DNA of 64,000 bases from Halovenus rubra (GCF_026586665.1 NZ_JAODIY010000018.1:27870-91869), one strand, 5' to 3'; positions 34,356-57,156 are shown, numbered from the stretch's first letter. The notes: generated by a model not told the origin, from the sequence alone. Program-made: numbers and translations.

Positions 34356-34380
34356 GCTGCAAGCGATGGACTGGAAAGGC

Positions 34381-34390
34381 ATAAGTTTCG
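34381..34390 (-). promoter_or_regulatory. TATA box of the CBASS operon
   Basis: On the minus strand the sequence gaaacttat lies about 28 bases before the ATG of the CD-NTase gene. This decides the start and implies a leaderless mRNA for the whole three-gene operon. Confidence 0.5.
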
Positions 34391-34459
34391 ATGACCGCCG
34401 AAAGCTCTTACGCCCGGCGTGGTCCGATGTATCAGTGACAATACTACTCCGCCGAGGAC

Positions 34460-35623: not shown

Positions 35624-35784
35624 CGTAGCAACGCATTCACACCGGGACCGCTTGAATGTCACCCAGTCGAATTTCAGAGTATTAGATGCCCATTGAGAAT
35701 CTGTTTTAATAGCAGGACGCTTTCGGATCTGCCGGTATTAGCGGTCTAGGGCGGCCTAGACGGCGTTTGACCGGCGATAGTTAT

Positions 35785-36738
35785 ATGGGGGTGAAAGTCG
35801 TAGTGGATCGTGTCTCCCATCTGAAAGCACAACCGGAGACGAGGAGAGAAAGTTTGAGTTCGCACGCTGAATCCCAAGAAATCGGTAGAGGCCAGCAAAC
35901 ACTGCACGAGGCGGTTAATTCTCACCGCATCTACGAGCCGATTAGAGGAGTTCATCCTCGCATCGAACTTCCGGACGAAGAGTTTGAGGAGTGGCTTGAT
36001 GGCAATCAGGAAATCGAGTACGTGGTTGTCAATTTCACTGACGCCAAGGAGGTCATCGAGCGGGACGGTGACCTGAGCCGGGTTTTAGAGCCGTGGCATA
36101 TCCCAGTGATCCTCGGTACGGAATATGATGAGGCTGTGAATGCACGTACCTTGCAGGATGTTTTAGACGTGCTGGCGATAGCGCAACCCGCGATCTACGT
36201 CCCGGACGTGGTCTACAGCTACAACTGGATGGAGGACGAGATTCAAGAAAACGCTCTTGAAGCCTACACCAGCCACGTTAGAACGCTGCAGGAACTAGTT
36301 ATTGAGGAGAACTTGGATGTCCGGTTGATCCCGACGAACAAGGGCTGGACGTACGAACACTTCCTAGAGTACCGCGAGTTGTTCGAGGAGTTCGACTACG
36401 ATGAGTTCGCGTTCTACGCCGTTCAGTACACTGGAGGTGACGCTGGTAACGCAATCAACGTCCTCCGGAGCCACGTTAGGAACTCCATTGCCGCCATCGA
36501 TATGGAGAATGTTTTCCTGATTGGACGGCTCGCGGAGGACGACCTGTTGGATTTCGCTCCGCGAGTGCGTGGAGCAACTGGACTTCGACAATGGACGGAC
36601 GCATGCTCTACTGAGAGCGGGCTTTCGCAACGTCTGTGGCCGGCGTTCCAGGAGGGACGGGAGGCCAAACTGTCGGTCAACGATGGTCAAGAACAGAGGC
36701 CTGTAAACGAGTTCGGCGGCACGAAGGAGGACAACTGA
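35785..36738 (+). CDS. Possible TGT/DpdA-like TIM-barrel protein
   Basis: This 317-residue protein has no textbook motif. Its C-terminal two thirds follow a TIM-barrel pattern: PAIYVPDVVYSYNWMEDE, LDVRLIPTNKGWTYEHFLEY, YDEFAFYAVQY and MENVFLIGRLAEDDLLDF, then GATGLRQWTDA. The order (substrate-channel Asp, LIP-x-x-x-GWT, I-G at a late strand, a G-x-x-x-x-x-W end) is reminiscent of tRNA-guanine transglycosylases and of DpdA, which put deazapurines into DNA. The match is weak and by eye. Start codon is uncertain: the ATG at 35785 overlaps a TATA-like sequence and a GTG at 35803 is possible. It is followed three bases later by a DsbA-like gene. Confidence 0.4.
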   Translation: MGVKVVVDRVSHLKAQPETRRESLSSHAESQEIGRGQQTLHEAVNSHRIYEPIRGVHPRIELPDEEFEEWLDGNQEIEYVVVNFTDAKEVIERDGDLSRVLEPWHIPVILGTEYDEAVNARTLQDVLDVLAIAQPAIYVPDVVYSYNWMEDEIQENALEAYTSHVRTLQELVIEENLDVRLIPTNKGWTYEHFLEYRELFEEFDYDEFAFYAVQYTGGDAGNAINVLRSHVRNSIAAIDMENVFLIGRLAEDDLLDFAPRVRGATGLRQWTDACSTESGLSQRLWPAFQEGREAKLSVNDGQEQRPVNEFGGTKEDN

Positions 36739-38024: not shown

Positions 38025-39011
38025 TCACACCCACTCAAGCGCTGCGTTGTGCTGCGCAACATACTGCGGCTTCAAGCTATCATCCGGGATCGAGATTCGC
38101 TCCCCTGCACGGTCAAGAATCGTCTCCTGGAGCACCTCACTCTGTGTTTTAAACTCTGGGTTCACCCGCAACCGGTAGTCCTGATCAATAGTGAACAGCT
38201 CCCGATCGAACGCCGCGTGATGCGTCTTACTGAGCGCCAGTACGTTCGAGAGGTCAGCCCGGTGATCCGGATAGTCACTCCACGAAAGGACGTGCGCTAC
38301 GTCCAACAGTCCAGGATGATCCACGCCGGAAATCGGACACGTCCGGTCGTGACGGGACAGTACCATCGCACGGAACTCCGGATCCACTGAACGGGCGTGA
38401 ACAGTCGCGTCGTACGTCCCAGCACGCATCCCAGCATCGCTCACCAACGGTGTCCAATCCGAGTCACTCCACTCCTCCACCGCACTCTCGACGAACTGAA
38501 GGCCGTCATCCGTCAACGCGTACTCATCGCCGCGCTTCTCAACGAAACCCATACTCCGCAGCCAATTCGCCCGCTGCTTCGCCATATCCGTCTCCCCGCG
38601 ACTCCACCCTAACTCCGGATGCGTATCCAACTGCTGCGCACTGATCTCCGTAATCGACATCGGTCCAGCGGACAACGCGTACAGCAAACTCCGAAGCCCA
38701 ACATTCCGCTCACACATAATTCGCAGCAGCGTCCCCACGTCGTACTGCTGCACATACTCCCGACCAGCATCCCCGAGCACCCAGTGATCATTCTCCAGTC
38801 GTACAAACTCTGCCTGCTCCAGATACGCGACCCGCCGCATAATCGACTCCCGACTCGACACATTCGAAAACGAACCACGATGCCAGCCCACCAGTTCATC
38901 TGTCGTCGGCTGATGATTAGTCACGAACTCAAGCACCGCATCCAACGTCTCAACATAGCGTGTCCCGCCTCCAAACATTGGGACAATACTACGGAGGCGA
39001 TCCGGAGGCAT
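38025..39011 (-). CDS. HNH endonuclease with two N-terminal winged helices
   Basis: This 328-residue protein ends in an HNH_2-type domain: CPISGVDHPGLLDVAHVLSW at about 223-242, then LSNVLALSKTHHAAFDRELF at about 252-271, with the His, Asn and His positions present. Two winged-helix segments precede it (about 20-80 and 105-170), each a likely DNA or ligand sensor. This layout is common in modification-dependent restriction enzymes. The start at 39011 (GTG/ATG cluster) could instead be 38978. It stands alone, convergent with the DsbA-like gene. Confidence 0.75.
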   Translation of the reverse strand: MPPDRLRSIVPMFGGGTRYVETLDAVLEFVTNHQPTTDELVGWHRGSFSNVSSRESIMRRVAYLEQAEFVRLENDHWVLGDAGREYVQQYDVGTLLRIMCERNVGLRSLLYALSAGPMSITEISAQQLDTHPELGWSRGETDMAKQRANWLRSMGFVEKRGDEYALTDDGLQFVESAVEEWSDSDWTPLVSDAGMRAGTYDATVHARSVDPEFRAMVLSRHDRTCPISGVDHPGLLDVAHVLSWSDYPDHRADLSNVLALSKTHHAAFDRELFTIDQDYRLRVNPEFKTQSEVLQETILDRAGERISIPDDSLKPQYVAQHNAALEWV

Positions 39012-39088
39012 ACAGAAATTGTGACAGGGCCAAGTGATGATCCTTTCCCCGGACGACTACCGTGAGGGAGACAGAGAGTTGCCGCCAA

Positions 39089-39331
39089 TTATGCGTTAGG
39101 TGAATCGTCGAGGGGTGGCCGCAAGTCACGCCACCGGAAATCAGCAGTCCCACCCGAGTCAAACGCGACCCGATACAGTTGCGCATCCCGCTTGTCACCA
39201 GTTAACGAATCTACATCATCACTTAGTACTGCAACGACCTGTCCGTGTTCCCCATGGTACTCCTGATGATCGAGATCTGTCTCATCAGGAATATCAACCC
39301 GGACGCGATCTCCCTCAGAGAAGCACTGCAT
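39089..39331 (-). CDS. Small SH3-barrel-like haloarchaeal protein
   Basis: This 80-residue protein has the pattern FSEGDRVRVDIPDETDLDH, then GEHGQVVAVL and LYRVAFDSGGTADFRWRDLR. Repeated short beta strands with GDxVRV at the start are typical of L21e/KOW-like SH3 barrels that bind nucleic acid or protein. It is widespread-looking in Halobacteria, but I cannot name its function. Confidence 0.6.
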   Translation of the reverse strand: MQCFSEGDRVRVDIPDETDLDHQEYHGEHGQVVAVLSDDVDSLTGDKRDAQLYRVAFDSGGTADFRWRDLRPPLDDSPNA

Positions 39332-39524
39332 TGAGGTTCAGTACGGTTCGACTACAGTTAGACCATATGATTCATGACGAGTGTAGGTAGGGCTCTGTCC
39401 CGGTCAAATGTAGTGCAAATCTATTATATACTGTAGCCAGAATTAGATTAATCATATTGGATTACACTTTTCTGTCCCTTTATCCCGATAAGCTACAAGA
39501 CATTCCAGTCGGTATCAACTCACT

Positions 39525-40538
39525 GTGACTCGCCTGTATGTCGTTCCTGTCGGTGACGATTGGATTCAGCGATTCAACAACACCGTCGCCTCACCAGTAT
39601 CTATCCCTGCGGAAGCGCCTGAGGATCTTCAGAAACAAAACGAAGCACGCATTTGGGGTACCACCGATGGGAATCAGAAACGCACGTTTTTTGAAGAAAT
39701 GGAGACTGGTGACCCACTCCTCTTCTATAACGACGGTGATTTCTTTGCTGCCGGTCGTGTCGGTGCTGCCTTCGAAGACCCGTCAGTCGGTGACGCGCTG
39801 TGGGACAATCCTGACAGTCGATTCATCTATACTGTCACCGATTACCAAGAAATCTCAGTTGATCGAGAACGAATCGCGCAGTTGCTTGGATACGAGGATA
39901 ACTGGGTTCCCTACCGGTTCCTTCGCGTGTCCCAAGACGCAGTCAGTAGTCTACTCCGGGAATACAATTCAATCGAAGAAGCCTTCCAAGACTTTCACAA
40001 CGGCGGTACGATCGATCCACCAGACACCGGTGGAGACAATGACGATCCGCGTGAACACACAGAAATCCAGTGGTTACTCATTCAACTCGGCCTGCGACAC
40101 GGCTACGACGTGTACGTAGCCACGAATGACAAAAACCGCACGTACAACGGGAACCGACTCGGTGATGACTGCGTTGAGAACCTCAACCTCCCCGGGTTCA
40201 GTGCCGCCGCCACACGCATCATCAAATACGTAGATGTGATCTGGCTGCGAGACGATTTCATCGTGAAAATGTTCGAAGTCGAAAGTACCACCAGCATCTA
40301 CAGCGGCATTCTTCGCATGACCGACTTCATGGTGAAAGTTCCGAACATCGCCGTCGATATGCACATCGTCGCCCCGGACGATGATGAGGACAAGGTCCGG
40401 GAAGAGATTAACCGCCCAACGTTCCAGCACGTCCTTCAACCCGCTGACCACTGCACCCTCCGATACCTCTCGTTTAACGATATCCGGACCACCCACGAGA
40501 CAGTCGAGCAAGCCGGACCACTGCAAGACGTTTTTTGA
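39525..40538 (+). CDS. EVE-like domain fused to a PD-(D/E)xK nuclease
   Basis: This 337-residue protein begins with an EVE/PUA-like domain (about 1-150): RIWGTTDGNQKRTFFEEM, then LLFYNDGDFFAAGRVGA. EVE domains bind modified bases. The C-terminal part has YVDVIWLRDDFIVKMFEVES at about 233-252, an Asp…E-V-E site resembling type II and TnsA-like nucleases, followed by TTSIYSGILRM. Together they suggest modification-dependent restriction (type IV-like). The GTG at 39525 is the best start; a TATA-like ctttat lies about 45 bases upstream. It heads a run of three nuclease genes on the plus strand. Confidence 0.7.
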   Translation: MTRLYVVPVGDDWIQRFNNTVASPVSIPAEAPEDLQKQNEARIWGTTDGNQKRTFFEEMETGDPLLFYNDGDFFAAGRVGAAFEDPSVGDALWDNPDSRFIYTVTDYQEISVDRERIAQLLGYEDNWVPYRFLRVSQDAVSSLLREYNSIEEAFQDFHNGGTIDPPDTGGDNDDPREHTEIQWLLIQLGLRHGYDVYVATNDKNRTYNGNRLGDDCVENLNLPGFSAAATRIIKYVDVIWLRDDFIVKMFEVESTTSIYSGILRMTDFMVKVPNIAVDMHIVAPDDDEDKVREEINRPTFQHVLQPADHCTLRYLSFNDIRTTHETVEQAGPLQDVF

Positions 40539-40606
40539 TGCGATAGTATCCCGCTTGATTCATGCGTGGTCTTATCAGGATAACATGAGTATGTGCCCAC
40601 AGTAGT

Positions 40607-41689
40607 ATGGCAACCGGTGTGACGGATTTCATTCAAATTGACGAAGTGCGGCATGAGATCGATTCTACGTATCCTGACCCTGGCACCGACGCCTCACGTG
40701 ATCTTTCGGTTCCGAACAACGGGTACAGTCACAAACTAATCGGACAGACAGTCGAATTCCTCTGTAAGGTATGGTTGTACCGGAACTGTGAGGAAGTTAT
40801 TCGACCGTCGATCCATTCTTCCAGAGAATTGGAAGACGATGATGGCGACAAATGGATTAGAGGCGCTCGATACCGTAAAATACCGGAGGTGACAGTTACC
40901 GTCTTTGACGGAAAGAAGTGGGAAGACCGTGATTCGGGCCCGTCAAATCAAAATGAATGGGATGTGATGAATGAAGACAGGCCAGACTGGGATCAACGAA
41001 GCCCGGTTCAGTGGGCAGAAAATGAGGATCTCTCCAAAATAGTCAATCAGTTCATTGAGACCGGAATGAATACAGACGGTGTCGTGAAAGCCGCGCTGCT
41101 CAACGCGGGCTGGCAACCCCCTGACGCAATCCAAACTTGGATCAACCGTGAAGCGATTGAGAATGAACTCCTCCATGAAATAGAAGAGCTATTCAGACTT
41201 CTCCGTACCCAAGAATGGGGCACCGGTGAGGTAGTATTTGAAAAGCCTCGATTCGGACACTTTCGCCATATTCTCCCAGGAGAAGGCGACTTCATCGTTG
41301 ACGATTTACTCGTCGACATCAAGACAACAGAGCGCAAATCATTCACGAACGCATTCTGGCGACAACTCCTGTTGTACTACGTACTGAATGACGTACAACG
41401 CGAACTATACGATTCGGAAACAGTCTCCCGAAGCGGGCGAGAGTTATTCAATGGGAAGTACCCTGAAATAACCCGTGTTGGTATCTATTTCTCCCGCCAC
41501 GGAGAATTACAGACCGTTGATATCAGCGAGCTCATTGATGATACAGACCGGTACGAAGAGTTCCGAGCTTGGATCGTGGATCGGGCAATCGAAGAGAACA
41601 GGCATGCCCAGATCAATTACTCAGCAATCAGGGGAGTACTCACTGAACCATACGATTACGAGCGGCAACAATCCCTCTTCGATTTCTAA
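40607..41689 (+). CDS. RecB/Cas4-like PD-(D/E)xK nuclease
   Basis: This 360-residue protein has GEGDFIVDDLLVDIKTTER at about 224-242 followed by NAFWRQLLLYYVLND. Asp…D-I-K plus a Gln-Tyr helix is the RecB-family (Cas4-like) nuclease motif. It lacks the Cys cluster of Cas4. The N terminus (about 20-110) is of unknown fold. It begins 68 bases after the EVE-nuclease gene with its own TATA-like cttatc. Its role is probably DNA end processing or restriction within this nuclease group. Confidence 0.7.
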   Translation: MATGVTDFIQIDEVRHEIDSTYPDPGTDASRDLSVPNNGYSHKLIGQTVEFLCKVWLYRNCEEVIRPSIHSSRELEDDDGDKWIRGARYRKIPEVTVTVFDGKKWEDRDSGPSNQNEWDVMNEDRPDWDQRSPVQWAENEDLSKIVNQFIETGMNTDGVVKAALLNAGWQPPDAIQTWINREAIENELLHEIEELFRLLRTQEWGTGEVVFEKPRFGHFRHILPGEGDFIVDDLLVDIKTTERKSFTNAFWRQLLLYYVLNDVQRELYDSETVSRSGRELFNGKYPEITRVGIYFSRHGELQTVDISELIDDTDRYEEFRAWIVDRAIEENRHAQINYSAIRGVLTEPYDYERQQSLFDF

Positions 41690-43381: not shown

Positions 43382-45559
43382 CTATGGTTGTGGTCCGGTT
43401 TGTTCGAGGACGTCGTACTTTTCGAAGACCATATCGAAGTACGCATCGGTCATAATTCGCGGGTCAGAGACACGGTGGAAGTCGTTGAGAATGAACTCTA
43501 CATCACGGCGATTCAGTCCGTATGCATGGAATGCGGCAGCATCGATCTCGGCCTGTAGTTCACGGCGCTCTTGCTCATCAGTCACAGGATTAATTCCACC
43601 GAGCCGATCCCGCATTTCGGTGAATTCCTCGCCATAGCAGTTCAGCTGGGCAGCCCGCTTTGAAATATAATAAAACCAGTCAGCACCTTCGGTTAGACGA
43701 GGTAATTTGGATTCCAAGAGCTTGTACTCTACAAGGTGCTTGTCGGTCTTCGTACGCATTAGGTAGTCGAAAGAAAGGCTGTTGATGAGTCCTAAGGCAA
43801 CGAACAGTTCATGGTCGGAGAATCGTCGGTCATACACTCCATGAAGTGGCGACTGTTTTAGATTATCCTCGGTAGGGTTGATTTCATATGGTCGGAAAGT
43901 TGCAAGCGTATGGACGCAAAGAACGTCTTTCGGAAGGACTGTTGCGATCATCGTTCTCTCATTTGTCGAACTGGCCACATCACGATACGCGATGCGGTAC
44001 TCCGAAGAGTCCAAGAGGACATCTTTCTCCGATAGTTCTTCACCTCTGTGTTTGGTCAGAAGGTCGTTCACGAACCCAATTTGTGACTTACTGGTTGATG
44101 ATCCTCCAAAGTCGTCGTAGAGTGCCTTCTTTGGTTCACCGGCGTTGAACCGCTTTTCACGGATACGACGCTTTGCACTACTATCGGGGTCTCGGTCCTC
44201 CTCTACACTCCAGTAGGTAGGGGAGTCATTCGCGTCACTCAGCGTATCGTCATACTGGTACTGAAAGACGTTGCTCCCTGTGTAGACTGGATAGTCTGGG
44301 TTGTCAACGTCCTCGTCGAAATAGCCCTTACGCTTGTCACGTGTCTCATTCAGCTCTTCCGGGAGCAGATTAATACTCCATGCATCATCTACCTGTGCGG
44401 AGAGTGGGGGATGTTGCAGAATCTTATCAAGTACTTCGACCTCCCGCTGGCTCTTCACCCATGGAAAGATGCGAGCTTCTGGCGAATACTCAGCAAGTAC
44501 CCGCCGCGGAAGGTGAAGTCCAAACTCTTCCAGGTTGGTGAATGGTCGTGTATCCTTCTGGTCGAAGACGCCCCACAGATCCTCTGTTCTGCCGGAGTTC
44601 TTGAAAGTGATTACAGCAAATCGCTGCTGTTTGTGGATGTCGAAAATGCCGTTATTCTCAAACTCAATGATTGACTGAACACTCGTTTCGTTCAGAAGTT
44701 GCATCCGTAGATCCTTCGACCCTTCCCCGTTCACGATAAGTCCAGGAAGCACCTGTGAAAGATAGGCATCGTCATCAACGAGGTGTAACACCCGCTCAAA
44801 GAACAATTTTGAAAGATCGTTCTTGTAGGTTGCAGTCTCGCCAGCAACTTCTGGCGTTTGAAGCGTGTATTCACCACTGTTCTTGAAGTACTCGGTGAGC
44901 CGCCTAATATTCTCCTGGTAGGACTCCCACTCTGACTTGATCTCAGGGTCGGACAGCTTCTCGTCCATGAACGCTTCTTTCTCTTCTCGATCCAGACTTC
45001 TGAAGGTGGGATTATATTGTGCAAAAAACTCGTCACTGCTCGAACTTAGGACATCCCACGGAGGATTACCGACGATGACGTCAAAGCCACCATCGCGGTA
45101 GACCCTCGCAAACTCTAGCACCCAGTGAAATGGCGAGTATCCCAGAACATCGTCGAAGGTAATGTTCTCAACACCAGATCCCTTGAACTGCTTCAGAATC
45201 TTCTTATGAAGATGTTGGCCATACTCTTCGATGAGTTTCTCTGCCTCGCGGCGGGCCTCAGCTGCTTCTCTAGCAGATTCGGATTCCCGGTGTCGCTCCA
45301 CAGATCTGATTACGTCTCTGTACATCTCTTGTACGTTCTCACCGATTCCACCGCCATAATTCGTAAGCGAAGCGTCACCTTCCTCAGTAGCGACTTCTTC
45401 GACATCCGTAAATCCGATCAGGGTGTTCCCCTGTCGGATATTGAAGTCAATATTGGGGAGCGGCTCCACCTCACTCGGTTCGTCTTCAATGTCTGCAACC
45501 ATTGAAAGCCATAATCGAAGTTTACAGATTTCGACCGCCCCCTGGTCAATATCTACCCC
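43382..45559 (-). pseudogene. Silent C-terminal cassette of an Eco57I/PglX-like methyltransferase
   Basis: This 725-codon open frame begins inside a methyltransferase, at GVDIDQGAVEICKLRLWLSM, and has no promoter or AdoMet motif I upstream. It has the catalytic motif in FDVIVGNPPWDVL and a full C-terminal half with target-recognition-like sequence. Its first 80 bases are perfectly inverted-repeated at 47200-47279 in the expressed gene and keep codon phase. Past that the two diverge, especially in the recognition half, but end alike (DRLGGINPVTDEQERRELQA). It is a store of alternative specificity, not a dead remnant: the frame is intact over 2.1 kb. Confidence 0.8.
45480..45559 (-). repeat. 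80-bp perfect inverted repeat, left arm
   Basis: This is the reverse complement of 47200-47279. It covers codons for GVDIDQGAVEICKLRLW… at the start of the silent cassette. Identity ends at once on both sides: at 45560 versus 47199 and at 45479 versus 47280. Recombination between the arms inverts the 45559-47200 interval, carrying the promoter and N-terminal half of the expressed gene. Confidence 0.95.
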
Positions 45560-45741
45560 CACTCAATCAGGCGTTAATAAGCAAATCCGGTAGTAGAGTG
45601 GACCTCCGTTTCCAGAGTAAGAATATCGAGAACCCACTGGCTAATCAATCAAACGAACAACGTTGGAAAAGTCTCCGCGGAGATTCCATCTAAACAGTTG
45701 CTATCCGTACATTCATTACGGTGTCATTACTTCCATATGCT

Positions 45742-48700
45742 ATGGCTCTCCAGCAGATCACCGCGAACGATATCGCGGGCTGGGACTCTTTACAGGATAT
45801 CGCTGACTCGTTCGAAAAACGTGGCCTGAAACCACGCCCTAATCTCGGGGAAGACAACGAACTGGTCCTCCAACTCGCCGATGACGAGTTTATTGTGCTC
45901 GTTAATGCTGGACCCGGGGAGGCGGCGACAGATTTCAAGCCGGATAACAGATCCCGACATACGAATCTCGTTGCCACGAATGATTTTGAAGACTTCACGT
46001 TCCTTACCCGCACGCGAAGCTGGGAGGGTCAACAGCACGGTCGTATTAAGCACCAGAAAATCTCGTTTAGTAAAGATCAGTTTACGCGAGACAGCGGGGA
46101 GAAGAACACTGTACTGAAGAAACTCAACTCGATTGAGTACGGTTCGTCTGCTGCAATCTACGACACGCTGTACGACACACAGCAGGTGGTCAAAGAATTC
46201 TACGAAGAGTTTGAGGAGCTTCGCACCGATCTCGTTCAGGAGGTCTCCGGAATTCCGGATGACCGCGGTGACGCGAAGCAACGCTACGTACAGGTCATCC
46301 TTGACCGGATGATCTTCCTATACTTCATCCAGGAGAAACGACTGCTAGACCGGAACCCGAACTATCTGCATGAACAGCCTGGCGACGTCATAGCTGATGG
46401 TGAAGATCGGTATGAGAACTTCTACAGGCCACTGTTCTTCGACTACCTCGCTGAGGACAAGCAGAATCCTGACTTCGGGAGCCTTCCATACTTGAATGGC
46501 GGATTGTTCGCCAAGAATCCAGTTGAGGAAGAATTCGCAGATGCGAAGCTCGGTGAGTCCGCTGAAGAGACAAACGAACTTTTCGACGAGATTCTGGACT
46601 TCCTCTCGGACTGGAACTGGAACGTAGACGAGCGGTTGGATATCGTTGACCCAAAGAACTTGTCTCCAGCGATTCTGGGACACATCTTCGAGCAGACGGT
46701 GAACCAGAAGGAAATGGGTGCGTACTACACACCCGAAGAAATCACGGGGTTCATGTCCCGCCGAACGATCCATCCGTACCTGCTGGATCAACTTAACGAC
46801 GCTGTCGATGCTGAATACGACGAAATCGACGACGTGTTTGGATTCCCCGGGATAGAAGCCAGCAGCGATGAAGCGGCGTTAGCGGACGGCGGTACGATGA
46901 CTCGCCAGGTCCCCACTAACAACGTGGAGACGAAACACGTCGAAACGCTGTATCACGACATCCTAAAAGAGGTACACGTCCTTGATCCGGCGGTCGGTAG
47001 TGGTGCGTTCCTGCTTGCTGCACAGGACGTGTTGGTGGATATCTACATGCAGTGTATCGAGTACTTCCAGCAACTCGAAAGCGAAGGTAAGGGATGGGAA
47101 TTAGATTCTCGAACACGTGATGAACTGGAAGAGGTCAATAAAGGACAGGGAGGGGTATCGCTATACGCGAAGCGGACGATCATTCTGAATAATCTGTACG
47201 GGGTAGATATTGACCAGGGGGCGGTCGAAATCTGTAAACTTCGATTATGGCTTTCAATGGTTGCAGACATTGAAGACGAGCCCAACGAGGTCGAACCGCT
47301 GCCGAATATCGATTTCAATATCCGACAGGGCAACTCACTCATCGGGTTCACGGATGTCGAAGAAGTAGCCACTGAGAGTGGGGATGCATCTCTTTCGAAC
47401 TACGGGGGTGGAACTGGGACTGGCATCAAAGAGATGTACGAAGGGGTGATCGAAGCCATTGAACGTCACCAAGATGCGACAAGCTCTAAAGTTGCTACAA
47501 ACGCGAGGAAGCTGGCAGAATCACGGATTGATTCCCACAGTGAGAAGCTGAATGAAAAAATCCTCAAGCAGTTCCACGATGCTGGTATCGAGAAGGTTGA
47601 TGAAAAGACGCTAGAAGAATATCACCCGTTCCATTGGGTGATTGAATTTCCTACAATCTACCGGGATGGTGGGTTCGACATCATCATCGGGAACCCACCC
47701 TGGGACGTACTCACACCTGATCGAAGTCACTTCTTCCCCAAATACGACGAGCGGTTCAGAACCCGACCACCAAGTGAAAAAGACCGAAAAGAGGAGGAGC
47801 TTCTATCGAATCCTGACATCGCAGCCGAGTATGAAGAATTCAAGAAAAATATGCAGATTCGGTCTGATTATTATAACTCATCAGACCAGTATGAACTACA
47901 GAAACCCACTGTCGGTGGTCAGACCGTTGCCACTGAAACGGACCTTTCACTCCTGTTTTTTGAGCGGGTTACCCAGTTAGCTGGAGACCAATCATATGTT
48001 ACCCAGATTATGCCGGGTAATTTCTTCCTTGGAGCGACGGCCAAGGACCTTCGGGAGTATATTATCAATAAAACTGAATTGAAGCACTTCGTCCAGTTTG
48101 AAAATAAAGACCTTTTCAACAATGTGGATGACCGCTATCATTTTGCCATCTGTACTTTTCGAAATTCCGGCTCTACAGAAGTAGTAAACGGCGGCTTTGC
48201 AAGCGGAGATACCTCCATACTTATCAATTTCGACAGAGATTCAATTGATATCCCATCAGAAGTTCTTGCTGAATACTCACCCGAATCACGTATCTTCCCT
48301 TTCTTCCGGTCACAAGAATTGATCGACTCGCTGTCTAAATTCGTAGACCATCCTCCAATTGGAGAGAAAGTTGGGGACGATTGGTTTGTCTCTCTGTACA
48401 TGAAGGAGCTTGACCGGGCAAATGACTCCGATCTCCTCATAGAACAACAAGAGGACGGCGATTACCCAATCTACGAAGGGAAGAATATGCACCAGTTCGC
48501 CTATGATGACACCTCCGTCTTCGACATCAATCCTATATCTCTCTGGGGAGTGGACGAAGACGACCCAGGCCGAAGTGCGAAACACAGAGTTCGGATGAAG
48601 AACTTTCGGTCACGTGATCCTGATGCGAGTTTGAAAAAGGCGATCTACAACAAGTTCGATGGGTCAGGCTCGCAGAAGTCGTTCGTCAACGGTCTGCTTG

Positions 48701-49374
48701 AGCAACATGGTCGGCCAGAGCTATCGAAGGAAGATGTGCTGCTTGACTGTACGAAGTACCGAATCGCTATTCGAAAGATTACGAATAGCACCAATGAGAG
48801 AACATTAATCGCTGGTGTCATTCCAAAGGACACCGTCACTGTACACAGCATCGCCACAGTTCGCCCCCATGTTGTGGAACCGACAGAGGATGATCTAGGT
48901 AATTACCCGATGCACAGCGCCTACGAAGAGGTGTTTACCGATGAAGAATTATTCGTCGTCCTTGGATTATTGAATAGCATCCCCATCGACTACCTGATGA
49001 GGACGAAGATCGACACCAATATCGTCCAATACAAACTTAATGAGACGCAGCTTCCTCGACTCACTGCCAGTGACAACTGGTTTAATTGGATTTCTCAGCG
49101 TGCGGCGAGACTGAATTGCTATGGAGACGAATTCTCCGAAATGCGCGACCGCCTAGGAGGTATTGACCCAGCTACTGATGCGCAAAAACGCCGGGAGTTA
49201 CAAGCAGAGATCGACGCTGCTGCATTCCATGCCTATGGGATGAACGAGGAAGAGACAAAATTCATCCTCAGTGACTTTTACCAGGTAGACAGTCCAAAGC
49301 TAATGGATGATCCCTATTTCGATCTCGTGTTTGAGAAGTACTCCGATTTAGATGAAGAGGGGCCTTACCCGTAG
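45742..49374 (+). CDS. Eco57I/PglX-like N6-adenine methyltransferase, phase-variable
   Basis: This 1210-residue protein has an N-terminal helical half. Motifs follow: QTVNQKEMGAYYTPEEI at about 323-339, AdoMet motif VLDPAVGSGAFLLA at about 412-425, catalytic IIGNPPWDVL at about 647-656, and a C-terminal recognition half. It would methylate adenine. Length and layout match type IIG/ISP enzymes and PglX of BREX. The ATG at 45742 is chosen; a GTG at 45721 is possible. Codons 487-513 lie in the 80-bp inverted repeat shared with the silent cassette. No PglZ/BrxC partner was seen, so I do not call it BREX. It is convergent with a PLD-SNF2 helicase gene. Confidence 0.9.
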   Translation: MALQQITANDIAGWDSLQDIADSFEKRGLKPRPNLGEDNELVLQLADDEFIVLVNAGPGEAATDFKPDNRSRHTNLVATNDFEDFTFLTRTRSWEGQQHGRIKHQKISFSKDQFTRDSGEKNTVLKKLNSIEYGSSAAIYDTLYDTQQVVKEFYEEFEELRTDLVQEVSGIPDDRGDAKQRYVQVILDRMIFLYFIQEKRLLDRNPNYLHEQPGDVIADGEDRYENFYRPLFFDYLAEDKQNPDFGSLPYLNGGLFAKNPVEEEFADAKLGESAEETNELFDEILDFLSDWNWNVDERLDIVDPKNLSPAILGHIFEQTVNQKEMGAYYTPEEITGFMSRRTIHPYLLDQLNDAVDAEYDEIDDVFGFPGIEASSDEAALADGGTMTRQVPTNNVETKHVETLYHDILKEVHVLDPAVGSGAFLLAAQDVLVDIYMQCIEYFQQLESEGKGWELDSRTRDELEEVNKGQGGVSLYAKRTIILNNLYGVDIDQGAVEICKLRLWLSMVADIEDEPNEVEPLPNIDFNIRQGNSLIGFTDVEEVATESGDASLSNYGGGTGTGIKEMYEGVIEAIERHQDATSSKVATNARKLAESRIDSHSEKLNEKILKQFHDAGIEKVDEKTLEEYHPFHWVIEFPTIYRDGGFDIIIGNPPWDVLTPDRSHFFPKYDERFRTRPPSEKDRKEEELLSNPDIAAEYEEFKKNMQIRSDYYNSSDQYELQKPTVGGQTVATETDLSLLFFERVTQLAGDQSYVTQIMPGNFFLGATAKDLREYIINKTELKHFVQFENKDLFNNVDDRYHFAICTFRNSGSTEVVNGGFASGDTSILINFDRDSIDIPSEVLAEYSPESRIFPFFRSQELIDSLSKFVDHPPIGEKVGDDWFVSLYMKELDRANDSDLLIEQQEDGDYPIYEGKNMHQFAYDDTSVFDINPISLWGVDEDDPGRSAKHRVRMKNFRSRDPDASLKKAIYNKFDGSGSQKSFVNGLLEQHGRPELSKEDVLLDCTKYRIAIRKITNSTNERTLIAGVIPKDTVTVHSIATVRPHVVEPTEDDLGNYPMHSAYEEVFTDEELFVVLGLLNSIPIDYLMRTKIDTNIVQYKLNETQLPRLTASDNWFNWISQRAARLNCYGDEFSEMRDRLGGIDPATDAQKRRELQAEIDAAAFHAYGMNEEETKFILSDFYQVDSPKLMDDPYFDLVFEKYSDLDEEGPYP
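47200..47279 (+). repeat. 80-bp perfect inverted repeat, right arm
   Basis: This arm pairs with 45480-45559. Both arms carry the same codon phase (GGG-GTA-GAT…), so inversion would fuse the N-terminal half of the expressed methyltransferase to the silent C-terminal half without a frameshift. Confidence 0.95.
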
Positions 49375-49404: not shown

Positions 49405-52400
49405 TCAGGTGCCGATAACGCCCCAACACATTAACCGGGCTTGCACCTCACTTTCTCCGACCAACTTAGCTTGGTACTCCGTCGATTCTTCCACGTTCTC
49501 CTCCAGGAACGATTCTAACTCTTCTAAGAACTCCACCGGTGGCCAATCTGGGAACGAATCATACTGCTCGTTATGCCGGAAGGTCTCCCGAAGGATACGA
49601 TCTTCATCAGTATTGGCTAACTTCACGTCCTGTAAGTGTTCTCGTAAGTCTTCAGCCCATTCTTCAAGCGTTTCGTGCTCGTCTACAGGAGCGGATATCT
49701 CACCGTGGTTCGGTTGTAAGTAGCGATCGATGAAGTCTAGAATCGTTTCTTGCTCTTTCGAGAACTTTGCCCCATCCTTGAATATTTGCTCAGTCTGACT
49801 GCTCCGAATCGCTTCAAGCCGGTCGTCAAGGACATCTTGGATTGCCTCCCGGTTGGACAAGACATTGTCGGCATTCCCGGTGATGGGTTCTCCACCCACC
49901 TCAGGGTCGATTTTAAGCGTGCCGACAGGCCGTTCCTTAACTTCGTCTGTGAACGGCTTGTAGTAGAAGGCCCGTCGGACACGCCCCAGTGGCGATTCGC
50001 GGTCGTCATCATCGAACCAGAGGTGTGCAAGTCCGAACACACCCGGGCGTGGACCGGAATCGTGATCGGTGATATTCGTGTACAGGCGTTCGCGTTCCTC
50101 GGGGGACTCCTCAAAGTAGTCTGCGGCGTACTCGAAGTCGTCTTCTGAGAGCCCGAACTCCTCGTTCAATTCCTTCTTGAGCAGGAACCGCTCGTACGCG
50201 GCGTGCTCGTTACTCCCCGCATTTCGAAGGAGCGGGTTCTTACTCGTATCATCGAGTTCGTTCACGTCCTCGATCTCTCGTGACTTCTGTAGCGAGTCTT
50301 CGATCTCGTCCACCTGCAACTCTCCAATCGTCTTTTCGGTTTCTACACCGGTCTTCTCCAGTATCTGGTCCTCGTTCGGGTCCAGGATGTTGTTCTCTTT
50401 CCCAACAATGAGTGCAATGTCGTTGATCTTCGCCTGTAGCCGCTTCAGGAGCTTAATGGCGGCTTCGATGTCTCCATCAGGATAGAAGTTGTGGACGTAC
50501 TTCTCTTCGGTACTCCCGATCCGGTCGATACGCCCTACGCGCTGAACGATCCGCATCGGATTCCACGGCAGATCGAACGATATTTGGACAGACACGTCCT
50601 GGAGATTGACCCCCTCCGACAGGGTGTCGGTTGCTATGACGTACTGTAGTTCGGATTCACCGGATTCGGCCAGCGTTTGCTGGTACCCCGAGGCTTCGGG
50701 GGCGAATCGCTGAATGACGTCTTGCTTGTTTTCATCACCGCCTTTGACTACAGCACTATTGGCCTCTGTGAGGGGCGAGTCAGGGTCGTTGAGAAGCGTT
50801 CGGTGGACGTAGTCTGCCGTGGCACGGTATTGGGTGAAGGCGAGAACCTTCTCGTCATCATACCCGTTAAGGACATCCGCGAGCCGCTCAACTTTCGGGT
50901 CACGGAACTCCCGTAACGAGAACACTGCTTCGTAGAATTCCCGCGTCTCCTCATCAACGTCACTCAAGTCACTTCGCGGATAGAGAATCGGGTTTAGTTC
51001 CTCCTCGGGAACGTCTGGGAGGACACCGGCATTATGATCGTGAAGCCACTGTCGTGTCGCAACAGCTTGGTCGCTCACATCGCCGGCGTCCTGTGCGATA
51101 TCACCGATAAACTGCGACAAGAAGTACGCCAGTAGCGTCAGGTCCTCTCGAATATACGTCTTCACCTCACCAATTGTTGCATCTGCCAATTCGTCCGTAC
51201 TGTCACTCTCAGCATCTTCATCGGCACGGACCGAGGTCGCATCGAATCCAAACTCTTCCAGCGTCTGTTCGAGATCTTCGGCGGCATCATCTCCTTCTAC
51301 AAAGTCATTAAGCGTCTCCGATTCTTCGTCGTCCTGAGCAGCACGCAGCACATCGATCTGCTCATCTTCTGGAAGCCCATCAAGAAGGCCGAGGAGTTGG
51401 CGTTCGCTACGGTGTAGCGTTTCGATTGACTGTACGAACGCGTATGTTGAAGATTCTAACCGCTTGAGCAGGTTTAGCTTATACAGCGCCTTCAGTGTCC
51501 CCCCAGCTTTCGGGTTCTTCACCGTAATGTGCGGAAGGTGGAGCGCGTCCATCACGTCCGGCAGCATCCGGTACACTGGCTGGTATGCCGCCGGGAGCGA
51601 GTACTGCTCCTTGCTGAGCGTTGGCGGCTTGAAACTCATCTCGAAGTCCTCCTCATCCTGGATTTGGTCTTTGACGTGCTTTCGTGTCCGGAGCACCATT
51701 ACCTCATTCAGAATCTTCGAGATCTCCTCCGAATGCCGCTGGAGCTGTTCGGTGATTTTTCGTTGTTCCTCCTCGGTGGCTTCCTCCTTCCCCGCGGCGA
51801 TCTTCTTCCGCGTCTCAGAAAGCTCAATGTATTCTTCGAAGGCGTCGAAGTCTAGTGATGCCTTGTTCCGAAGTTCTTCCGGGCTGGTGAACAGGCTGAT
51901 GAGGTTTTCTAAGTCGGTCGCGGAGTTGTTGATCGGCGTCGCCGTCAGCATAATCATTGTTTTCCCACGGAGCTGACGCAAGTTCGCGTGCCGCCGAGTG
52001 CCTTTGTAGTCGTCTTCGTCTTCTGGGTTCGGTCGCCACTTCCCGTGGTTCCGGAAGCGGTGGGCTTCGTCAATCAGGACGACGTCGAACGCGTCCTTGA
52101 GATTCTGCACCTCATCGTATGTGAGGTTCTGAAACTTGCTAATGCTCATCACGTCCAAATGCGTCCCATCGATGTCGAGTCCGAAGTATGGATTCCCGTC
52201 TTCGTCTGTGTCGTCTTGGAGGAGGTCTTCCCACTGTTCGGTGAGATTCGCAGGCACGACAAGGAGACAATGGTCACCACGTTGGCGGTAGTCATGCAGG
52301 AGTTCACCGCCGATGAATGATTTTCCGAGCCCGACAGAGTCGGAGATGATGCAGCCGTTGAACCGAGAGAGTTTCTCCTTCGCGCTTTCGTATCCGAGTG

Positions 52401-53241
52401 TCTGGAAGTAGTACAGCGGGCTGTCGCGGATGTTGACATTCCCGCTCAGTTCGTCGTATGCCAGAAGCTTGTACAGTTCAAACGGCTCGATGTACGTCCC
52501 TAGGTCATCAGGCGTGTCTTCATCATCCGGCTCGTTTTCTTGTTGTTCCTGCCAGTCTTGGTACTTTTCGCTGTTCTCGATGATCCGGATGATTTCCTCG
52601 CTAAAGTCTTCAGCATTCGCCCACTGGTTATCGTACCAGTTTTCGAATGCCTCTGCTTCAGGCCGGTCTTGGCTCGTGAGGTTCAGTTCGATGTTGTTTC
52701 GGTGTCCACTCGCGGTGAAGTTTGAGGAACCAACAATCGTTGCACACGGACGCGTATCAGTATCGTCGTCAGTACTCCAGTCATCATCATCTTGCGGTGC
52801 TCTGAACGAGGCTCCTTTGGCGTGGAAGTAGCCGTTTTCTGGATTTCGCACACGGACGCTAACCTTGTCTTCGGCTATGAAGTCTCGCAGTCGATCTAAC
52901 CGTCCTAACTGGGCGTTGTTCAGCTCCTCAATACTCTCTTCAACATCGTCTTTGAGTTCATCCTTTAGATTTTGGCCCTCGTCAATTTCCGCTGCTGTAC
53001 TGCGGTTCGTTTGTCGCCCCATCAAGATTCGAATCGGGGCATGGCCGAGTTCGTCTGGGTCAGCAAGCTGTTCGAGATCATCGCGGTACAGGTCGAAGCC
53101 AGAGAGATAGAAATAGCCGGTGGCGATACGTGCTTCCTCGATTTGCGGGATGATCTTCTTGTAGACGTCTTCGACAGACCGATTGGCGTTATCGACGAGA
53201 GGAGGGAGAGAGATCATTGTGTTGCCGAATGTAACCAGCAT
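49405..53241 (-). CDS. PLD-nuclease/SNF2 helicase fusion
   Basis: This 1278-residue protein starts with a PLD-like domain (about 15-230; GYFYLSGFDLYRDD, YFHAKGASFRAPQ, TIVGSSNFTASGHRNN gives the H-x-K and GSxN elements). An SF2/SNF2 helicase follows: IISDSVGLGKSFIGGELL at about 296-313, VVLIDEAHRFRN at about 386-397, MIMLTATPINNS, and the late IATDTLSEGVNLQDV and IVQRVGRIDRIGS. A charged C-terminal region ends it. It would remodel or unwind DNA and cut it. The start could be 53217. It faces the methyltransferase gene tail to tail with 30 bases between, so the two likely form one restriction system despite opposite orientation. Confidence 0.85.
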   Translation of the reverse strand: MLVTFGNTMISLPPLVDNANRSVEDVYKKIIPQIEEARIATGYFYLSGFDLYRDDLEQLADPDELGHAPIRILMGRQTNRSTAAEIDEGQNLKDELKDDVEESIEELNNAQLGRLDRLRDFIAEDKVSVRVRNPENGYFHAKGASFRAPQDDDDWSTDDDTDTRPCATIVGSSNFTASGHRNNIELNLTSQDRPEAEAFENWYDNQWANAEDFSEEIIRIIENSEKYQDWQEQQENEPDDEDTPDDLGTYIEPFELYKLLAYDELSGNVNIRDSPLYYFQTLGYESAKEKLSRFNGCIISDSVGLGKSFIGGELLHDYRQRGDHCLLVVPANLTEQWEDLLQDDTDEDGNPYFGLDIDGTHLDVMSISKFQNLTYDEVQNLKDAFDVVLIDEAHRFRNHGKWRPNPEDEDDYKGTRRHANLRQLRGKTMIMLTATPINNSATDLENLISLFTSPEELRNKASLDFDAFEEYIELSETRKKIAAGKEEATEEEQRKITEQLQRHSEEISKILNEVMVLRTRKHVKDQIQDEEDFEMSFKPPTLSKEQYSLPAAYQPVYRMLPDVMDALHLPHITVKNPKAGGTLKALYKLNLLKRLESSTYAFVQSIETLHRSERQLLGLLDGLPEDEQIDVLRAAQDDEESETLNDFVEGDDAAEDLEQTLEEFGFDATSVRADEDAESDSTDELADATIGEVKTYIREDLTLLAYFLSQFIGDIAQDAGDVSDQAVATRQWLHDHNAGVLPDVPEEELNPILYPRSDLSDVDEETREFYEAVFSLREFRDPKVERLADVLNGYDDEKVLAFTQYRATADYVHRTLLNDPDSPLTEANSAVVKGGDENKQDVIQRFAPEASGYQQTLAESGESELQYVIATDTLSEGVNLQDVSVQISFDLPWNPMRIVQRVGRIDRIGSTEEKYVHNFYPDGDIEAAIKLLKRLQAKINDIALIVGKENNILDPNEDQILEKTGVETEKTIGELQVDEIEDSLQKSREIEDVNELDDTSKNPLLRNAGSNEHAAYERFLLKKELNEEFGLSEDDFEYAADYFEESPEERERLYTNITDHDSGPRPGVFGLAHLWFDDDDRESPLGRVRRAFYYKPFTDEVKERPVGTLKIDPEVGGEPITGNADNVLSNREAIQDVLDDRLEAIRSSQTEQIFKDGAKFSKEQETILDFIDRYLQPNHGEISAPVDEHETLEEWAEDLREHLQDVKLANTDEDRILRETFRHNEQYDSFPDWPPVEFLEELESFLEENVEESTEYQAKLVGESEVQARLMCWGVIGT

Positions 53242-53991: not shown

Positions 53992-54591
53992 ATGAATCAC
54001 TCGACACCACCCACGCAAGAACCCATCGACAGTCAGCTAATTGAAGAAATATCACAATTTAAACAAATTGCGCTCGGGGAAGGGGCCGCGGTTTGTGAAG
54101 TCTGCGACGAAAAACTGCGGGAAGGCGCACCGGTCGTTGTGTTTGCCTTCCGGCCGGTTGAGCAACCGGTCTTCCAGATCGGGCACGTGAAATGCACTGA
54201 GTGTCGGCACGAGCCAACGGAGTACTTCACGCTCGGTGTGCGCGAGCTTGTCTTGGATGGCCGGATCGGGACGTGTACTGATCCTGCGACGCAGTCATGG
54301 TGGCCTGTCTTCCTGGCCCCACAACCGCGCGCGGTGAGCGCGCCGGACTCGACGGCGGTGCGACCGCTGCCGGGTGTGGCGTGGTTTCGCCAACCGGTTG
54401 CGCGGAGCGACACGTTCGTTGCTGCGGATTGTGAATCAATGCGCAAGCCGTGGCAGCGTCCGGTGGTGCGGGCTGACGACGTTGACCCCGATAGCGCGTC
54501 CGAACCTAAACGGGATCCGAAGAGCGACGATGTGACTGAAACTACTGCCCCACACGCCGCTGATGGCGGCCGATCAGGAGGTGCTCGGTGA
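53992..54591 (+). CDS. Zinc-binding haloarchaeal protein at the head of the HRAMP operon
   Basis: This 199-residue protein has CEVCDEKLREG at about 34-44 and HVKCTECRHEP at about 67-77, two CxxC pairs that likely bind one zinc. The LGVRELVLDGRIGTCTDPAT and QSWWPVFLAPQP segments are typical of a haloarchaeal DUF found in several loci. I chose the ATG at 53992; an upstream GTG at 53872 would add a non-acidic 40-residue extension. It overlaps the Cas7-like gene start (GTGA). Zinc-ribbon proteins called Csf1 head type IV CRISPR loci, but I see no other resemblance. Confidence 0.65.
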   Translation: MNHSTPPTQEPIDSQLIEEISQFKQIALGEGAAVCEVCDEKLREGAPVVVFAFRPVEQPVFQIGHVKCTECRHEPTEYFTLGVRELVLDGRIGTCTDPATQSWWPVFLAPQPRAVSAPDSTAVRPLPGVAWFRQPVARSDTFVAADCESMRKPWQRPVVRADDVDPDSASEPKRDPKSDDVTETTAPHAADGGRSGGAR

Positions 54592-55559
54592 CGATGCACG
54601 GGGAGCAAGACGCGCAGGCGTTCGACGCCTCGCACCTCGACATCGATTTCGACTTTCCGCGTCCTGTCGATGAGACAGCGTTCCCGGATCTGTACGTCGG
54701 GCTGGATATCGACTTGCTCGCACCGGGTGATGGGATCGTCACGGATCGACACCATGCGTCGGCGGACCGGTACGAGGCTGATGATCCGCAGAATCAGATT
54801 GCGGGGCAGATTTCGCCGTTCACGTTGTCGGGCTGGCTGCGCCATGGCTGTGAGCGGGTGGTGCAGGCGGCGGGCGCGACGGTGTGCCATCCCGGCGAGT
54901 CGAACGCGGATTACATGCTCGAAGACGTCTATGACCGCGATCTCGATGCCGGGTATCACGAGAAGGGGAGCTGTGTTGAGGGCGATGATGGGACGGGCTG
55001 TGTTGTCCACGACTTGTTCGGCGGGTTCGGTAATCGGGCGGGCCGCGTGATTCGCCGGCCGATTCGCTTCTCACCCATCCGCAGGCAGGTGGATGTGACG
55101 AAAGGTGAGGCGGAAGCGCATTACCGCCAGTTGAATACGCAGGTGCGGTCGCGGAATGCTGCGGATGAAGGGCAACCACTTCGGCAGGCGACGCGGGATG
55201 TCGTCGGGAATCTCGTGGGGACGTGGCGACTCACGCTCCGCGAACTGAAGCCCGAATACGTGGGGTTGCTCGTTGAGGCGATCGATTACCTGGATGCGCA
55301 TAGCGATGAGTATGCGATGCAGCTTGGCGGTGCGCGGAATTTCGGTGCAGGGATCGTCGATGCTGAAGTGGTGAACCCGTTGTATTCGGATGCTGAGCTG
55401 CGGCGCGTGTATAATCGCGCGCAGGATGCGACGAGCGGGATGGACACGAAGGATGATGTGTGGCGGGAGCAGTGTCGTGCAGAGTTTGTGCGGGCGTTGC
55501 AGGCGCGGACGGCGGCGCGTGATGGTGACGTGCCGGTGCCTGGAGGTGAGTCGGTGTGA
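54588..55559 (+). CDS. Cas7-like RAMP protein (HRAMP system)
   Basis: This 323-residue protein follows the Cas7/Csf2-type RAMP layout. ISPFTLSGWLRHGCERVV at about 75-92 matches the loop-helix after the first strand (compare the SLKGALR motif). DLFGGFGNRAGRVIRRPIRF at about 143-162 and MQLGGARNFGAGIVDAEVV at about 244-262 are Gly-rich RAMP loops. Cas7 proteins form the RNA-binding backbone of class 1 effectors. It starts on the GTG overlapping the upstream stop; an ATG at 54594 is also possible. It matches the diverged Cas7 of the haloarchaeal HRAMP system reported by Makarova and co-workers in 2019. Confidence 0.75.
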   Translation: MTMHGEQDAQAFDASHLDIDFDFPRPVDETAFPDLYVGLDIDLLAPGDGIVTDRHHASADRYEADDPQNQIAGQISPFTLSGWLRHGCERVVQAAGATVCHPGESNADYMLEDVYDRDLDAGYHEKGSCVEGDDGTGCVVHDLFGGFGNRAGRVIRRPIRFSPIRRQVDVTKGEAEAHYRQLNTQVRSRNAADEGQPLRQATRDVVGNLVGTWRLTLRELKPEYVGLLVEAIDYLDAHSDEYAMQLGGARNFGAGIVDAEVVNPLYSDAELRRVYNRAQDATSGMDTKDDVWREQCRAEFVRALQARTAARDGDVPVPGGESV

Positions 55560-55873
55560 CGGGGTCTGACGGGGCTGACGGTGGCGGTGTCGATGACGAT
55601 GTGGAGGATGAGGATCTTGATGAGCTGCACCCGGTGTCGTCGTCGTTGCGGACGGCTCAAGAGCAGGAGGGCGGGACGAGTCGAGTGGTGGAGGCTGACG
55701 ATGGGCAGACGGAGTCGAAGGGATCGGGTGGTGGCTCGGAGTTGGATGAATTAGCTCCTGTGGCGTCGGGGGTTCGAACGACACAGAGCCAACCTGTGGC
55801 TGATGATCTCGATGCTGCGGGTGATGACGGTGATGCGGGTGCGTCGGATGAGGAGAGTGGTGGCGATGACTGA
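55556..55873 (+). CDS. Small acidic low-complexity HRAMP-operon protein
   Basis: This 105-residue protein starts at the GTG overlapping the Cas7-like stop. It is almost all Asp, Gly, Ser and Glu, with two copies of a short element (DELHPVSSSLRTAQ and DELAPVASGVRTTQ). It is probably disordered. The repeated element may dock on a partner. It overlaps the next gene by eight bases. Confidence 0.55.
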   Translation: MTGSDGADGGGVDDDVEDEDLDELHPVSSSLRTAQEQEGGTSRVVEADDGQTESKGSGGGSELDELAPVASGVRTTQSQPVADDLDAAGDDGDAGASDEESGGDD

Positions 55874-56708
55874 TTCGTCGGCGACTGCGGGCGCTGGTCG
55901 AGAGTCGGGTGACGGTGAGGCTGTGACGGATGTGGTTTCGATGCTGGCGGTGTATCGGCATGACGTTCACAAGCTGCGTGGGCGGTCGCATTCGTCGGCT
56001 CGTGACTGGGTTGCTGGTGTGCGGGTGAATGAGACGGTGCCGTTGGGTGCGGATCGGGATGCGGCGTTGTTGAGCCGCCCGTCCGGGGAGCCGGAGCAGA
56101 CGCTGGCTGCGCACGAGTCTCCGTCGCGGGTGTCGCTGCTGACTGGTGACGTGGTACTGTCGGGCCCGGTTGACGCGGATGGTCGTGGCGCGGCTGTGCG
56201 GGAGTTAGTCCGGGTCGAGGACCCGGTGGCGATGCATGAGGCATGGCTGTCGTCGGACGTGGCGGGGCTGTTCAGCGAGTCGCTGTTCTACCCGTACACG
56301 TCGTTACAGTATCACACGCTGTTGGCGGCGGCGCTGCTCGATAATTACCGTGCAGGGTTCGAGTTCGCGGATCTGTTCTTGGCGGTTGAGGATCCGGATG
56401 GGTCGGTGACGCCGCATCGGACGGTGCTTTCGATTCCTGAAATGCAACTGTGCGTGACTGGTGAGCCGGGTGATCGACCGGCTGCGCGGCTTGGTGACGG
56501 GCCGTCGCGGTGCTTCGCGGACGTGTGGGCGCGCCTACCGGAACACCCGCTCGATGTGGATGGCGACCGGGTGTGGCGGGTGTTGGATGCGCAGTTGCGG
56601 CGGATTCGGTCGTGGTCGGTGGCGCTGCAATTCGTCAAGGAGTATTGTCGGCGCTTCGACCCGGGGAGTGATGCGGGTCGCGGTGGTCGTCGTGGGGGTG
56701 GGAGGTGA
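55866..56708 (+). CDS. Conserved uncharacterised HRAMP-operon protein
   Basis: This 280-residue protein begins at the ATG 55866, eight bases before the previous stop. The sequence is partly helical (VSMLAVYRHDVHKLRGRSHS; ESLFYPYTSLQYHTLLAAAL). It has no metal, nuclease or ATPase motif I can name. HRAMP loci are described as having one conserved protein besides Cas5 and Cas7; this is the best candidate. It ends 448 bases before the next CDS, the only large gap in the operon. Confidence 0.6.
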   Translation: MTDSSATAGAGRESGDGEAVTDVVSMLAVYRHDVHKLRGRSHSSARDWVAGVRVNETVPLGADRDAALLSRPSGEPEQTLAAHESPSRVSLLTGDVVLSGPVDADGRGAAVRELVRVEDPVAMHEAWLSSDVAGLFSESLFYPYTSLQYHTLLAAALLDNYRAGFEFADLFLAVEDPDGSVTPHRTVLSIPEMQLCVTGEPGDRPAARLGDGPSRCFADVWARLPEHPLDVDGDRVWRVLDAQLRRIRSWSVALQFVKEYCRRFDPGSDAGRGGRRGGGR

Positions 56709-57156
56709 TGCCGGTGGGCTGGGGGTGCGGTGGTGTCTGGTGTGGTTGTCGTGGCGGAGCGGCGGTGCTCGTGGTGGAGCACCGTTCGTGCCGGGTTGTG
56801 GCTGCTCGTGTGGCAGGCTGTGGTGGTCCTGGCGCTGCGAGTAGCAGTGAGAGTGACCGTGGAGTCGATGGGCGGGGACAGCCGTCGGGATGCGTGGTGG
56901 TGTCCCGACGTCGTTGCCCGACCGCTCACTGCGTCGGGGCGAGTGGGTCTGCGTGGCCGCTGCGACGGGTTCGCGCTCGGTCCGATGCTGCGTGGCGAGT
57001 ATCGAAGACACTTGAAACGGGGTGTGTCCCTGGTCGAAGAACACTTGAAACGGGGTGTGTGGGGGTGCAGTGGTGTCGTGAGTGTGGTGGTTGTCATCGT
57101 GTGCGTGGTGGCACACGGTTGGGCAGTACTTGGAGTGGAAACGGAGGGGTGTGTGG
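56709..57156 (+). other. Gap in the HRAMP operon with direct repeats; possible RNA
   Basis: This gap is G/T-rich on the plus strand and holds only Cys/Arg/Val-rich frames of no likely protein. Two near-identical 20-bp direct repeats occur at 57008-57027 and 57041-57060 (acacttgaaacggggtgtgt), 33 bases apart. A degenerate third copy with an insertion lies at about 57128-57156, ending just before the next start. The repeat's ends (acac/gtgt) can pair as a short hairpin, and it contains ttgaaac, a common end of CRISPR repeats. It is not an array by spacing. Confidence 0.5.

Follow-up and report, generated by a model that had tools for sequence, protein, structure and literature searches.

Can a cellular archaeon change the specificity of one of its own DNA methyltransferases by turning around part of the gene and, if so, by means of which enzyme and to what end? 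Bacteria are known to alter the specificity of restriction or methylation by programmed inversion, and haloviruses to invert their tail-fibre genes; the question of an archaeal cellular counterpart is raised by a locus of Halovenus rubra, lying in a stretch of DNA of 64,000 nucleotides (“the window”; positions are counted from its first letter). The gene concerned (45742-49374) encodes an N6-adenine methyltransferase of 1210 amino acids (Pfam Eco57I) and shares an inverted repeat with a silent reading frame on the minus strand.

The probable invertible segment of the Halovenus rubra locus

The initial annotation of this region had described an exact inverted repeat of 80 bp, with identity ending abruptly on both sides, a silent frame in the codon phase of the expressed gene, an inversion that would cause no frameshift, and a tyrosine recombinase next door (Table 1). 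The two arms are indeed exact reverse complements (80/80), a match far beyond chance, and they are the sole pair when 38-56 kb is scanned for inverted repeats of at least 20 nt. Identity ends abruptly only on the inner side, toward the head and promoter: there, one arm borders on codon 493 of the gene and the other on the presumed promoter region. Toward the tails no such break is seen, and the arms stay homologous to 214 nt (86%). The silent frame (43382-45562, minus strand) reads GVDIDQGAVE... from the arm onward, in the same phase as the gene, and reverse-complementing 45480-47279 in silico yields a single minus-strand ORF which leads from the head into the silent tail, ends at 43385 and encodes an intact protein of 1211 amino acids, compared with 1210 in the present orientation. 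The recombinase was likewise found in the place described. The moving piece consists of the promoter and the N-terminal head, while both C-terminal tails are fixed. The likely start of the expressed gene is the ATG at 45742, conserved in relatives, not the listed GTG at 45721.

Table 1. Features of the methyltransferase locus in the window
Feature	Position	Strand	Basis
Int1-like tyrosine recombinase, presumed invertase, 222 aa	42672-43340	+	PF00589; homology and motifs in common with Int1 of phiH1/phiCh1/ChaoS9
Silent alternative tail, recombinase side, 725 codons, intact	43382-45559	-	Eco57I Pfam match; open frame
Left repeat arm (80 bp): region of the recombination site and initial codons of the silent tail	45480-45559	-	Exact reverse complement of 47200-47279
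Right repeat arm (80 bp), within the expressed gene at codons 494-520 (GVDIDQGAVEICKLRLWLSM...)	47200-47279	+	Exact reverse complement of 45480-45559
Outer limits of the longer arms (214 nt, 86%)	45346-47413		Arms 45346-45559 and 47200-47413
Invertible segment including arms: promoter region and N-terminal head	45480-47279		In-silico inversion; homologous segment in both orientations among relatives
Presumed promoter/leader within the invertible segment, travels with the head	45560-45741	+	Position alone; relatives conserve the ATG at 45742
Head: N-terminal region and SAM-binding motif DPAVGSG (aa 422)	45742-47199	+	Motif scan; conservation among relatives
Expressed tail, helicase side: NPPW (aa 658) and target-recognition domain	47200-49374	+	Motif scan; predicted fold
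PLD-SNF2 helicase, constant methyltransferase partner	49405-53241	-	Domain matches; next to the gene in almost every locus with sufficient flank

We consider it very probable that this arrangement switches a defence methyltransferase between two states by DNA inversion, with an Int1-like recombinase acting inside the arms and the recognition being changed. The recombinase would recombine sites within the two arms, and the 1.8-kb segment carrying the promoter and the N-terminal half with its SAM-binding motif would flip between two fixed, convergent C-terminal halves, each bringing its own NPPW catalytic motif and target-recognition domain; in the present orientation the gene would end in the helicase-side tail, after inversion in the recombinase-side tail. 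As the promoter accompanies the head, the expected result of a flip is a gene that is still expressed but has another recognition sequence, not one that is switched off.

Orientation of the head and state of the silent tail in relatives

Relatives of the methyltransferase (E 1e-60 or better) are present in 90 of 392 haloarchaeal genomes, and none was found in the viral contigs searched. They come in two layouts: solo loci (e.g., L033-L039, L041-L044) comprise a head and one tail, usually with a PLD-SNF2 helicase, and switching loci, seen in relatives from several families, are arranged as recombinase> <tail, head, tail> <helicase. One haloarchaeal-type solo locus (L035, head 91%) resides in a metagenome-assembled genome labelled Nitriliruptoria, a label which is probably a binning error.

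Among the switching loci, the head is directed toward the helicase side in the window and in L045, L059, L060 and L073, and toward the recombinase side in L040, L046, L047, L048, L055, L061, L071, L072, L095 and L096. Halorubrum salipaludis (L048) and the Halorubrum salinarum plasmid NZ_CP053943.1 (L059) have tails that are 99.2% and 99.5% identical and heads in opposite orientation; the interior of the head is 99.5% identical only when flipped. A second case is provided by Halorussus vallis NZ_CP100003.1 (L101/L102), the first and last 46 kb of which repeat each other, from base 1 to the last base. The terminal copies are colinear at 99.8-99.99%, and their only structural difference is the head, which is inverted exactly between 54-bp arms (20440-20493 and 21961-22014). 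The simplest reading is that this is an untrimmed circular overlap; because the 46-kb overlap differs only by the inversion of the head, one culture probably held both forms, and the true length of the sequence, deposited as a “complete” plasmid, is probably about 121 kb. A true duplication of 46 kb could be invoked instead and would still require an inversion. Further, contigs end at the arms in four short-read genomes (G031, G206, G130, G365), which fits mixed orientations; this is circumstantial, because short k-mers can also produce such ends. The comparisons indicate that inversion of the head has happened in related species and in one sequenced culture. On the Natrinema sp. DC36 plasmid (L097, 7100-9645), head fragments form a 1115-bp palindrome between two tails, one of which contains an IS6 element; this is a broken locus or a misassembly.

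The silent tail might be nothing but the dead leftover of a duplication or a gene fusion, the repeat a product of recent gene conversion, and the strain of the window might not switch at all. Such decay does occur: the silent tail of L061 is a short frame and that of L049 is frameshifted, and G163 carries a headless orphan copy of part of the window's silent tail (L108, 8583-10128), 97.6% identical in DNA, in which identity begins at the inner edge of the arm and no head is present within the fetched 19 kb. The window's own silent tail, however, is open over all of its 725 codons, and in the relatives dN/dS is about 0.04-0.12 in most tail pairs and about 0.05-0.12 between silent tails of different genomes, like that of expressed pairs; the silent tails of relatives are thus under purifying selection. 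Together with the occurrence of both orientations in relatives and in the assembly of one culture, this leaves the dead-leftover explanation with very little probability. The tail that is silent in L055 (G355) shares 99% identity with the one expressed in the window. With inverted repeats in the coding frame and an in-frame alternative half, both orientations in existence among relatives and an alternative half that is intact here and under selection in relatives, the locus has the features of a methyltransferase that is phase-variable by DNA inversion.

The recombinase and its sites

The recombinase of the window lacks an N-terminal core-binding domain. All six catalytic residues (R-K-H-R-W-Y) are present, as is a CGYC motif in common with Int1 of phiH1, and the protein is 39-41% identical to Int1 of phiH1, phiCh1 and ChaoS9 and to the recombinase of HCTV-5; both homology and catalytic residues place it among the halovirus invertases of the Int1 family. 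In phiCh1, the recombinase is reported to invert the tail-fibre module of the virus (PMC6471424; PMC8651126; PMC6210493).

Recombinase genes of this kind go with switching loci. Of 18 matches with at least 72% identity, 17 lie within 70 bp of a tail end; the exception (G180/L083, 75% identity) is situated away from any such locus, and the solo loci L033-L039 and L041-L044 have no recombinase within the fetched flanks. The arms fall into two site classes, located at codon 494 (class B: the window and, at the same position, L040, L055 and L056) or at codon 443 (class A: the others), and the two classes match two clades of recombinases, one 91-95% and the other 72-80% identical to that of the window. 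As a candidate for a recombination core common to both classes, the 6-mer [C/T]ATTGA occurs at the same offset in each; because its P is about 0.17 under synonymous shuffling, a shared core site is not claimed. More distant Int1-like genes (65-68%) adjoin larger methyltransferases of another subfamily (L077, L078, L079, L098), two of which (L078, L079) also carry another large ORF, divergently oriented, that weakly matches a methyltransferase; these are possibly other switching systems, and they were left out of the counts because no comparable arm repeats were found in them.

An inversion that is real need not be the work of the neighbouring enzyme, which would be incidental if host homologous recombination acted between the short repeats. 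The 80-bp identity exceeds what a tyrosine-recombinase site needs, the tails are homologous beyond the arms, arms of 54-80 bp could in principle recombine in this way and, according to PMC6620402, recombination of pneumococcal spnIII is independent of known recombinases. However, arms are as short as 38 bp (L055) and 27 bp (L056), or 25 bp before the first mismatch (L047, L071), which is short for homologous recombination; within a class, their inner edge does not shift by a single nucleotide between loci; and a recombinase, of the Int1 family, adjoins every two-tail locus with long enough flank and is absent from the one-tail loci examined. We regard homologous recombination as an improbable explanation and infer, from position, co-occurrence and family, that the recombinase of the window acts on these arms.

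Specificity, defence and known systems

What would be exchanged is suggested by the sequence and predicted fold of the protein. Heads of relatives are well conserved, mostly at a mean pairwise identity of 0.7-0.98, and along the protein identity drops past about residue 548. Between the window's two tails, identity is 53% overall and 35-45% across most of the presumed recognition region; inversion would thus exchange the catalytic loop together with the recognition domain. In an AlphaFold model of the whole protein the head is poorly predicted (mean pLDDT 51); residues 401-1217, refolded alone, reach a mean pLDDT of 73, and this model matches M.BseCI, CamA, PglX, BpuSI and MmeI over the methyltransferase and the C-terminal recognition domain with Z of 11-16 (VIA-align Z 13-16 for M.BseCI, CamA and PglX, the match taking in the C-terminal domain). 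In the weaker whole-protein model, the C-terminal part also matches HsdS subunits. The predicted fold of the tail matches target-recognition domains of known enzymes, and the succession of SAM motif, NPPW and this fold is that of gamma-class N6-adenine DNA methyltransferases with a C-terminal recognition domain.

The methyltransferase and the PLD-SNF2 helicase probably form a restriction- or DISARM-like defence unit; cells could then probably switch which DNA sequence is marked as self, and the self-mark would differ between cells of one population. Close to the locus, genes for a CBASS-type oligonucleotide cyclase (33249-34484; PADLOC E 3e-134) and for a TGT-domain protein (35767-36738), together spanning 33246-36738, make the surroundings a defence island. 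Between these genes and the switch (38025-41689) lie an HNH enzyme related to phosphorothioate-dependent restriction enzymes (38028-39011) and two ORFs (39525-40538 and 40607-41689) with weak matches to REase/RT-associated PDDEXK-type profiles; directly past the helicase region, two ORFs (54588-58146) weakly match type III CRISPR Csm3/Cmr3-like proteins. Phase-variable methyltransferases of pathogens act as phasevarions, according to PMC7394358, and the switch might accordingly serve epigenetic gene regulation more than protection from viruses. The constant helicase partner and the surrounding defence island point to defence, so that a chiefly regulatory switch is unlikely; the two roles are not exclusive. 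For the preferred reading of a defence switch, we infer catalysis by the window's recombinase, differing recognition sequences, the function in defence and switching in the window's own strain.

The initial annotation had likened the locus to BREX loci with shuffled PglX. As regards its mode of working, this likeness to phase-variable methyltransferases, including the PglX of Lactobacillus rhamnosus, stands; membership does not, as class assignment by the curated cut-offs of NCBIfam gives the methyltransferase 75 bits against a PglX cut-off of 500 (NF033452; other PglX models score lower), and its partner is a PLD-SNF2 helicase. PglZ matches are found only on contigs C8, C6 and, weakly, C3 of the genome and not on C10, the contig of the locus. 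The helicase reaches 131 bits against a cut-off of 610 for DISARM DrmD and 146 against 1100 for a PLD antiphage model, and matches to PF09369, as a sign of a drmB-type (DUF1998/MZB) gene, occur only on contigs C48 and C1 and not on that of the locus. By these profile scores, the methyltransferase-helicase system is neither BREX nor DISARM; it is not a Type I member either.

Resemblances to known systems are nevertheless manifold. In the Int1 tail-fibre module of phiCh1, phiH1 and ChaoS9, a homologous recombinase swaps protein ends by inversion between inverted repeats (PMC6210493, PMC6471424), but there the recombinase is part of the segment that inverts and acts on a viral tail fibre, whereas in the window its gene is outside the segment and a cellular defence methyltransferase would be switched. 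The BREX type 1 PglX of L. rhamnosus likewise comprises a full-length methyltransferase, a partial second copy and a site-specific integrase (PMC7513527); its recombinase is located between the two copies, whereas in the window it lies outside them, and the methyltransferase of the window is in addition archaeal, has a PLD-SNF2 partner, no PglZ on the contig and a score below the PglX cut-off. Type I hsdS inversion, as in the pneumococcal cod locus with its tyrosine recombinase PsrA, exchanges target-recognition domains between inverted repeats (PMC4948785, PMC7096588); there, separate S-subunit genes are shuffled, while here the methyltransferase is a single chain, divided in two, and what moves is the head with its promoter. 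DISARM has methyltransferase (DrmMI), PLD (DrmC) and SNF2 (DrmD) domains too, and weak DrmMI and DrmD profile matches exist; in the window, however, PLD and SNF2 are in one protein, scores are far below cut-offs and the contig has no DrmB-type gene. Type IIG/IIL enzymes such as MmeI, BpuSI and DrdV also have a methyltransferase domain followed by a C-terminal recognition domain in one chain, but not two alternative tails and a separate helicase partner.

By word search, such a switch is not mentioned in a review of archaeal tyrosine recombinases (PMC8371274), in surveys of archaeal (PMC10609329) and halobacterial (PMC6471742) restriction-modification, or in a BREX landscape (PMC12839542). The earlier suggestion that an archaeal example with this layout may be new agrees with its absence from the archaeal surveys, although the layout is not unique, as it recurs across haloarchaea; because the literature covered is incomplete, novelty is provisional. 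As to origin, we lean toward a scenario in which a two-gene defence system widespread in haloarchaea (N6-methyltransferase and PLD-SNF2 helicase), and different from both BREX and DISARM, took up an Int1-family invertase like those of haloviruses as well as another recognition half, and thereby gained a programmed switch of self-marking specificity.

If true, this would be the first such switch in cellular archaeal defence, as far as the literature searched shows, and a cellular defence switch whose recombinase comes from the family that serves a viral host-range switch. Conserved as it is among haloarchaea, such a switch would extend phase variation of immunity to the archaea and could be tested in existing strains. 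In finished assemblies the two states can be concealed or wrongly joined, and methylomes, transformation efficiencies and virus-resistance phenotypes of haloarchaeal cultures may be mixtures.
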